Of a DNA stretch of 64,000 nucleotides, positions 21,308 to 23,033 are shown piece after piece. Source of the DNA: an uncultured Prevotellaceae bacterium. Lineage in GTDB: Bacteria; Bacteroidota; Bacteroidia; Bacteroidales; Bacteroidaceae. Positions within the stretch are counted from its first letter, which is position 1. Each line of letters begins with the position of its first letter. Location of the stretch: NCBI GenBank assembly GCA_946410305.1, contig CAMJZV010000003.1:114887-178886 (forward strand), in the 5' to 3' direction. The notes below the pieces were generated by a model. It made no database searches and was not told the DNA's origin. It was given only the letters and a program-made list of their open reading frames with translations. The translations under genes and the position numbers were made by a program.

Positions 21308-21659
21308 TTTACTTGTTAATTATTACTTGTTATTTGATATAAGTGCATATTGCGGGTGCAAAGGTACGAAGAAAAAATGAACTGACCAAATGTTTCCAGA
21401 AATTTATTTCGTTTTGTTTTTACAATATAGGTACGTTGCGCGGGTGTACCTGTCTTTCTAATAGCTGTATCGGCTGCTGAGATAGCTGTTCTCGCTACTG
21501 AGACAGCTGTATACGCGAAAAAGTCGTACGACTTTTCCAAAAGTGGTACGACCTTTTGCTGGGAATAGCTATCTCGTATTCAGGAACAGCTAATACAGAC
21601 GTGGGATGGGCTGTTTCGTGCGCGCGTGCGCATACACGCCCCGCGCGGGAACGTTTCTA

Positions 21660-21857
21660 AAAATCGCTTTCACTTTCACAATGCCCTATATACAGGGCAT
21701 CTGAGCTACTTTCCCCAATTTTGACGTTTCACAAACGTTTCACACTTTTCTGTGAAAGCGATGTGAAACGTTGAGGCAACTCTCCGCACGTATGAGCAGC
21801 TGAGAATAGCTTATTTATGGGACTTTTTCGTAGCTGCGTGAAAGTGAAAGCGATTTT
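21660..21857. repeat. 198-bp element with 20-bp perfect terminal inverted repeats
   Basis: AAAATCGCTTTCACTTTCAC (21660-21679) is matched exactly in reverse complement at 21838-21857. Inside are the palindrome ATGCCCTATATACAGGGCAT (21681-21700), two direct ACGTTTCACA words and an inverted TGTGAAACGTT. The size and ends resemble a miniature inverted-repeat element or a large structured RNA/DNA cruciform. It lies 13 bp from the left REP of the transposase unit. Confidence 0.7.
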
Positions 21858-21870
21858 TTGAAAAGTAAAA

Positions 21871-21901
21871 ACGGCTGCACGCCAGGGTGGGGTGCAACCG
21901 T
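21871..21901. repeat. REP hairpin, left of the RAYT gene
   Basis: ACGGCTGCAC and GTGCAACCGT arms around GCCAGGGTGGG. Same orientation and same 31-bp length as the right copy, differing at two positions. Confidence 0.85.
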
Positions 21902-21926: not shown

Positions 21927-22967
21927 CTATATCTGCGTGATTGTCTCTACCAGTCTGTTAAGCATCAGGCATTGTTCTCGTGAGATGGTGCGTCGTTGCA
22001 TGTGGTACTCCCATGGACTCACCTGTAGCAGACGACCATCAGAGCAGGCATCGAAAGACTCTCCAGCGGGCTTGTACAATGGAGGGAACCCGTTTCCACG
22101 AACCAATATGATGCGATAGCCCCAATTCATCGCTTCGCGCATGACCTCCTTTTCGCGGGTTGCGATAGCGGCGCTCACCAGCACGCCACCTCGCTCTCCA
22201 CATGCCAGCCATTTTTGCTTGTAGTCCTCGTAATCCTTGTCAGTATATGCGCTATGTACGATGACGGCTACCATATCTGGGATGTCAAGAAGAAAGCTAT
22301 TGCCCACAAGTTGGCAGTGCCACTCCGCAATGTCTCTGTAGTGCATCGTGGTGAAGTAGTCGGGGTGTAGCCGCTTGATGGCCAGGCGACGAGGGTTGTC
22401 GTCTAGATAGTGGAGCCAGTTGTCGAGCTGGCCGTCTTCCAGTAGTATCTGGTCATTGTAGCCACTTTCAAAGAGCACGGGGCGGTTCTTTTCCGCAGGA
22501 GAAACTGCGGGAGTGGTGGTTTCTTCCTCCACTACTCCTGCCGTTTCTCCAGCAGGTATTGCAGATAGTCGCCACCATGCTCTGGAGCATCCTACCTTGA
22601 ATCCTCTTACAACATCGCCAAGATGCTTGCTGGCGGGTAAGTCCTCTTTGACTCTCACAATCATATGGATGTGATCGGGCATGATGCAGACTTTCCAGAC
22701 CTCTACCATTTTGTAGAAGTATGAAATTTTCTGTGTCTCTTCGCTGTAGATGACTTTCCCGAGTTCTGTCAGCTCCACGCACGCACTCTGATTATTAGTG
22801 GGCATAATCAATTTTCCCAGCAGAGGCTGGCGCCCGTCGACCACCAAAGTCAGTAAGTAAGTGCCTTTGTGCTGATAGTCGTGCCACGGTTTACGGCGTT
22901 TCATGTTATGTCGTGTTCCTTCGACTTTAATTCCCGCCTCAATGGCTTCTTCTCTTGTTTTGGACAT
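21927..22967 (-). CDS. REP-associated tyrosine transposase (RAYT) with DprA/SLOG-like C-terminal domain
   Basis: 346 residues. The N-terminal half is a Y1 HUH transposase: TYLLTLVVDGRQPLLG, then the HUH motif in CIMPDHIHMIVRV (His99, His101), with candidate nucleophile Tyr170 in FESGYNDQIL and the NWLHYLDDNPRRLAI helix seen in RAYTs. Residues about 138-160 are encoded by an in-frame palindrome. Residues about 225-320 (MVAVIVHSAY, GGVLVSAAIATREKEVMREAMNWGYRIILVRGNG, FDACSDGRLLQVSPW) look like a Rossmann-type DprA/SLOG domain, which is not part of a plain RAYT. Two direct REP hairpins flank the gene, the usual RAYT setting. RAYTs nick and move REP sequences in single-stranded form. Transposase call is firm; the C-terminal assignment is from motif reading only. 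Confidence 0.87.
   Translation of the reverse strand: MSKTREEAIEAGIKVEGTRHNMKRRKPWHDYQHKGTYLLTLVVDGRQPLLGKLIMPTNNQSACVELTELGKVIYSEETQKISYFYKMVEVWKVCIMPDHIHMIVRVKEDLPASKHLGDVVRGFKVGCSRAWWRLSAIPAGETAGVVEEETTTPAVSPAEKNRPVLFESGYNDQILLEDGQLDNWLHYLDDNPRRLAIKRLHPDYFTTMHYRDIAEWHCQLVGNSFLLDIPDMVAVIVHSAYTDKDYEDYKQKWLACGERGGVLVSAAIATREKEVMREAMNWGYRIILVRGNGFPPLYKPAGESFDACSDGRLLQVSPWEYHMQRRTISREQCLMLNRLVETITQI
22495..22553. repeat. In-frame palindrome inside the RAYT gene
   Basis: A 25-bp arm (22495-22519) and its imperfect reverse complement (22529-22553, four mismatches) around a 9-nt loop. It encodes the low-complexity AETAGVVEEETTTPAVSPAE stretch between the HUH core and the tyrosine helix. Confidence 0.75.
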
Positions 22968-22981
22968 GGTGTTAAGTTAAA

Positions 22982-23012
22982 ACGGCTGCACGCCAGAGTG
23001 GGGTGCAGCCGT
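22982..23012. repeat. REP hairpin, right of the RAYT gene
   Basis: ACGGCTGCAC and GTGCAGCCGT perfect 10-bp arms around GCCAGAGTGGG. Direct repeat of the left copy. It also ends 21 bp before the stop of the next gene and may serve as its terminator. Confidence 0.87.
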
Positions 23013-23033
23013 TTGATATAGAAAACTTATGTC

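Follow-up and report, generated by a model that had tools for sequence, protein, structure and literature searches.

REP-associated tyrosine transposases (RAYTs), REPs lying in frame inside RAYT genes, intragenic REPs and the Rickettsia palindromic elements are already known (PMC6006769, PMC3733652). In-frame REPs between the HUH motif and the tyrosine of the RAYT gene itself are, according to Quentin et al. (2018, PMC6006769), a feature confined to subclass 2.4. For DprA, the passage of PMC9769556 that cites Wang et al. gives two ssDNA motifs, motif 1 being G-[STA]-R and motif 2 being [FLY]xxR[ND].

The window analysed here is a stretch of 64,000 bp from an uncultured Prevotellaceae bacterium. 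On its minus strand, an ORF at bp 21,927-22,967 encodes a protein of 346 aa, which is a Y1/HUH REP transposase with a C-terminal domain homologous to DprA. No description of a RAYT-DprA fusion was found in the libraries and open papers searched (most subscription papers lay outside this search).

A RAYT with a DprA-like domain

The HUH motif of the protein, PDHIH (residues 97-101, bp 22,665-22,679, minus strand), was recognised in an earlier note on this DNA as PDHIHMIV, and this was borne out. From the candidate tyrosines mentioned there, the catalytic one could be assigned to Y187 in YLDDNPRR (bp 22,407-22,409, minus strand), which fits the YxxxNP motif of TnpAREP (PMC6006769). P97, D98, H99, H101 and Y187 were all invariant in 17 close relatives from Prevotella-type genomes. 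The profile matches stayed below the family cut-offs: NCBIfam REP_Tyr_transpos (NF047646) matched the 346-aa protein with an E-value of 2.7e-8 and 33.8 bits, the cut-off being 80 bits, and Pfam Y1_Tnp matched it with an E-value of 8e-4. Besides the HUH motif and the single tyrosine, the predicted fold places the protein among the RAYTs, as it resembles 4er8/IS200 in a Foldseek search with the AlphaFold model.

The C-terminal domain comprises residues 206-346 approximately (bp 21,930-22,352, minus strand) and ends after the motif-2 helix, as delimited by fold prediction, hhalign and HMM bridges. Of the five full-length models that AlphaFold produced from an input of 17 sequences, the best had a mean pLDDT of 70.5 and the other four 58-60. 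Most of residues 211-290 had a pLDDT of 70-89 in the best model, with weak loops at residues 292-309 and 322-326; the domain modelled alone reached a pLDDT of 45 and was left unused. In a Foldseek search of the PDB, the full-length model matched IS608/ISDra2/IS200 (E-values to 1.4e-5, probability 1.00) and the RAYT 4er8, and also ShosA 8zva (E-value 4.7e-4, probability 1.00) and the DprA structures 4ljk, 4ljr, 3uqz and 3maj (E-values 5e-4 to 2e-3, probability 1.00). Judging from the identity of these targets, we infer that the N-terminal half of the model corresponds to IS200/RAYT and the C-terminal half to ShosA/DprA. Alignment of the domain to DprA with hhalign gave P-values of 3e-4 and 1e-3; the score was 28.8, whereas 60 column shuffles gave no more than 20.1 and the reversed control 15.6.

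Two standalone DprA-like proteins of approximately 155 aa, L077 and L263, connect the fused domain with DprA. Of these, L077 matched the C-terminal domain (hhalign P-value 3.7e-13) and PADLOC PsyrA (4.5e-9), and L263 scored above the Pfam cut-off of PF02481 (DprA) and matched the HMM of the C-terminal domain at 3.9e-10. A direct sequence search of Pfam and PDB with the domain gave no significant match. Based on the Foldseek matches, the hhalign alignment and the two bridging proteins, the domain is very probably DprA-like, as the earlier note had proposed from the sequence.

The predicted fold is a DprA-type Rossmann fold, and the ssDNA motifs have changed. The position of motif 2 reads [CF]xx[LMI]N in the relatives, with the Asn in 41/41 and the Arg in 0/41. 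That of motif 1 reads VHS in the window protein and VHR, CSR or CHR in various relatives. Moreover, the domain ends before the later Rossmann strands, where the residues for RecA contact and dimerisation are found in DprA. Because motif 2 is degenerate, binding of ssDNA by the fused domain is uncertain. The absence of the motif-2 Arg and of the second half of the Rossmann fold leaves a role in competence or with RecA unsupported, so that the link to competence suggested earlier is weakened. Loss of this Arg would also suit a ligand-binding SLOG regulator that senses nucleotides instead of contacting DNA; DprA belongs to the SLOG superfamily, whose other members bind nucleotides. We regard such a regulator as unlikely, as the nearest structural matches were ShosA and DprA and not sensors of the LOG/TRPM type.

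Other contigs of the window's genome (contigs 10 and 12) encode two more homologues that are full-length and share the C-terminal domain. Both are divergent fused RAYT paralogues, and the gene on contig 12 (L003) is preceded by two related hairpins and contains a further one, which has a GGTTC(T/A)CC loop.

In a survey of 295 Bacteroidales genomes, the C-terminal domain was present in 14, nearly always within a frame of RAYT length, versus 142 with a RAYT core, plain RAYTs thus being far more frequent than fused ones. It is therefore not a normal part of RAYTs across the order, but it is within its own clade, so the RAYT-DprA fusion is an established family of that clade and not a one-off. Within the genus, 64 of the 120 genomes carried a fused RAYT; in the viral contigs searched, no relatives were found. 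In a tree of 57 RAYT cores, the 16-17 plain RAYTs, a best-scoring sample and not all plain RAYTs, formed one clade with a support of 1.0, which is consistent with a single fusion event. The locus of the window (OB-fold-like gene, fused RAYT, rpmE) is common to several species. One RAYT at the same rpmE locus (L023:4001-5038) has a HUH half distant from that of the window and a DprA-like half nearly identical to it, which suggests a domain exchange affecting the catalytic half.

Hairpins flanking and inside the RAYT gene

One hairpin was seen on each side of the RAYT gene, downstream at bp 21,869-21,901 and upstream at bp 22,980-23,014, the latter after the stop codon of the OB-fold-like gene. 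They are approximately 31-35 bp long and 86% alike over 50 bp. The earlier note had taken the hairpins on both sides for REPs. One hairpin per side is indeed present, but as REPs they were rejected, since they occur only at the RAYT locus and are not dispersed: the only two occurrences of the exact pattern in the 3.2-Mb draft genome were at this locus, and a looser pattern was found in related genomes only beside the RAYT gene of this locus or downstream of a paralogue of the OB-fold-like gene. Both hairpins follow stop codons and are flanked by A-tracts and T-tracts. Although they were not picked up by a simple scan for terminators, we read them as terminator-like from the sequence, given that in relatives similar hairpins stand behind the ends of genes at this locus.

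Between the RAYT gene and rpmE (bp 21,640-21,870) is an element of approximately 220 bp, bounded by inverted ends of 29 nt (GTGAAAGTGAAAGCGATTTTT). The genome contains some ten further sequences related to it in part or in full length (72-86% identity), and the element looks like a MITE.

The true REP-like element of the locus, overlooked in the earlier note, is an inverted pair of hairpins inside the RAYT gene (bp 22,490-22,558), in the linker between the HUH motif and the tyrosine. Copy b (bp 22,490-22,519, plus strand) has the foot GGGAGTGGTGG and copy a (bp 22,529-22,558, minus strand), inverted to b, has the foot GGAGTAGTGG. They scored 42.7 bits (E-value 4.7e-10) and 43.5 bits, respectively, with a covariance model for which both were among the source sequences. 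The DNA fold of the region had a z-score of -3.67. Other species have similar hairpins in this linker, whose stems vary whereas the foot, GGAGTRGTGG, is largely constant; some occupy an earlier loop as well. Instead of dispersed REPs flanking the gene, it is the internal hairpin that has dispersed relatives. As a simple 13-mer the foot was not enriched (33 occurrences versus 49 in the reversed control), so a structure-aware search was required.

Hairpin copies in unrelated genes

A search with the covariance model, built from 14 hairpins of the internal type, revealed further copies in eight genomes carrying a fused RAYT; the genome-wide counts come from pattern and model searches and from sampled stretches, and they depend on the candidate limit of the search (150 or 61 scored in each genome). 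Besides the two window copies, 82 sites were examined, 12 of them from the window's own genome; among these 82, L204 belongs to a RAYT gene, and L183 and L214 are weak. In the stretches L172-L183 and L203-L262, the hairpin is at the centre (1501-1530). All 82 sites were within an ORF of at least 150 aa; long ORFs can also be shadow ORFs, and L225, L231 and L261 are doubtful. Since bacterial genomes are mostly coding, this location alone is weak evidence. The codon phase is stronger evidence: with the three doubtful sites and duplicates removed, 71 of 77 sites shared one phase, and 64 of these 71 were in one orientation, encoding TTP(D/A)xSP(S/A)G. All three frames of that strand were free of stop codons in at least 76 of 79 sites. 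The sites are not independent, as some are common to orthologues. No description of this frame-locked hairpin family was found in the libraries and open papers (most subscription papers being outside the search).

The in-frame copies, mostly reading TTP(D/A)xSP(S/A)G, are in genes for TtcA-like, LigA, MurF-Alr and GltD proteins and glycoside hydrolases. Compared with its solved homologue, GltD carries a 13-residue insertion at the position of the hairpin. The hairpin also forms tandem arrays, with a spacing of about 33 bp, inside coding frames (L152, L153 and L206).

With a threshold of E up to 1e-3, hairpins were detected in 18 of the 64 genus genomes that have a fused RAYT and in 2 of the 56 that have none (p 2e-4, ignoring phylogeny). 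Genomes with a close window-type RAYT, defined by a domain score above 240 bits (a cut chosen after inspection of the data), contained hairpins in 6/6 cases versus 14/114 for the others (p 1e-5, again ignoring phylogeny). Both counts partly include hairpins inside the RAYT genes themselves. Genomes carrying other fused RAYTs did not contain this hairpin family in many cases (46/64). We infer that the window's fused RAYT mobilises the hairpins.

The two genomes that have hairpins and no detected fused RAYT would be expected if the hairpins were moved otherwise, by another RAYT, by recombination or by slippage, and the RAYT gene, with its tolerant linker, were one more target. The insertions in RAYT genes are indeed placed in tolerant linkers, and Rickettsia has intragenic palindromes for which no mover is known (PMC3733652). 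However, the hairpins co-occur with the fused RAYT, most strongly in the window's own subclade, and recur at one position of the linker in several species, which makes another mover improbable. Alternatively, the fused RAYT may be domesticated, with a host role in ssDNA processing and no movement of REPs, the intragenic hairpins being old relics inherited vertically. The locus is fixed beside rpmE in several species, and the hairpin sites in LigA, a GH95-like enzyme and a PrmA-like protein are common to orthologues across genomes, as this would predict. More recent activity is suggested by hairpins that are almost identical and by tandem 33-bp arrays, both seen in some genomes, as well as by MurF-Alr copies at different sites in two genomes, and we consider domestication rather doubtful.

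Our preferred reading, which we hold to be somewhat better than an even bet, is that of a single-copy RAYT, kept mostly by vertical descent, behind whose Y1/HUH catalytic domain a truncated DprA-type Rossmann domain was joined, apparently once. The catalytic domain would nick and rejoin ssDNA at hairpins with a GGAGTRGTGG foot and thereby spread them, and copies in genes would persist where they are translated as a small flexible TTPxxSPxG loop. The DprA-like domain would serve as an extra module contacting ssDNA or protein, holding the displaced strand or dimerising, and probably not as a RecA loader. A selection acting only on the reading frame leaves the scarcity of intergenic copies unaccounted for. 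It is conceivable, though we would not expect it, that the DprA-like RAYT moves REPs which insert or survive almost only in genes, in one frame, and so adds TTPxxSPxG loops to host proteins time and again, with the DprA-like domain biasing it towards the ssDNA of genes under transcription or repair.

Comparison with known systems

The fusion unites two ssDNA-handling families in one polypeptide, so how a RAYT finds its ssDNA substrate becomes testable by deletion of a single domain. As insertions that occur naturally and in frame in conserved enzymes (LigA, GltD, MurF-Alr, TtcA-like), the hairpins mark protein sites that tolerate a loop of approximately 10 aa.

The RAYT of the window shares with the RAYT/TnpAREP proteins (PMC6006769) the HUH and YxxxNP motifs, low copy number and REP-like hairpins that are associated with the gene and in frame inside it. 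It differs by the DprA-like domain, which is not described there, and by the absence of typical flanking REPs. As in subclass 2.4, in-frame REPs are found between HUH and Y. However, subclass 2.4 is characterised by NH[IFV]H, WQ and YIxNNP and has no C-terminal extension, whereas the window RAYT has PDHIH, LFE, YLDDNP and an extension of approximately 140 aa; the fused RAYTs carry DH[IL]H and LF(E/D) in place of NH[IFV]H and WQ.

The C-terminal domain resembles DprA/Smf (PF02481) in its predicted fold, the GN..LL entry and the motif-2 N. Unlike DprA/Smf it has no SAM or DML1 domain and no second Rossmann half, the motif-2 Arg is lost in 41/41 and motif 1 is degenerate in the window protein. 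Among the DprA-like parts of TA and defence systems (ShosA/PsyrA), 8zva was the best non-transposase structural match and PsyrA was matched by the standalone relative L077; the window domain differs in being fused to a transposase, and a PADLOC search with the window's fused RAYT itself gave no match.

With intragenic REPs and the Rickettsia palindromic elements (PMC3733652), the hairpins share palindromes lying in frame inside unrelated genes. In most REP families the copies are mainly intergenic, whereas nearly all copies examined here lie within ORFs and share a single codon phase, which makes this family a case of largely intragenic REPs.
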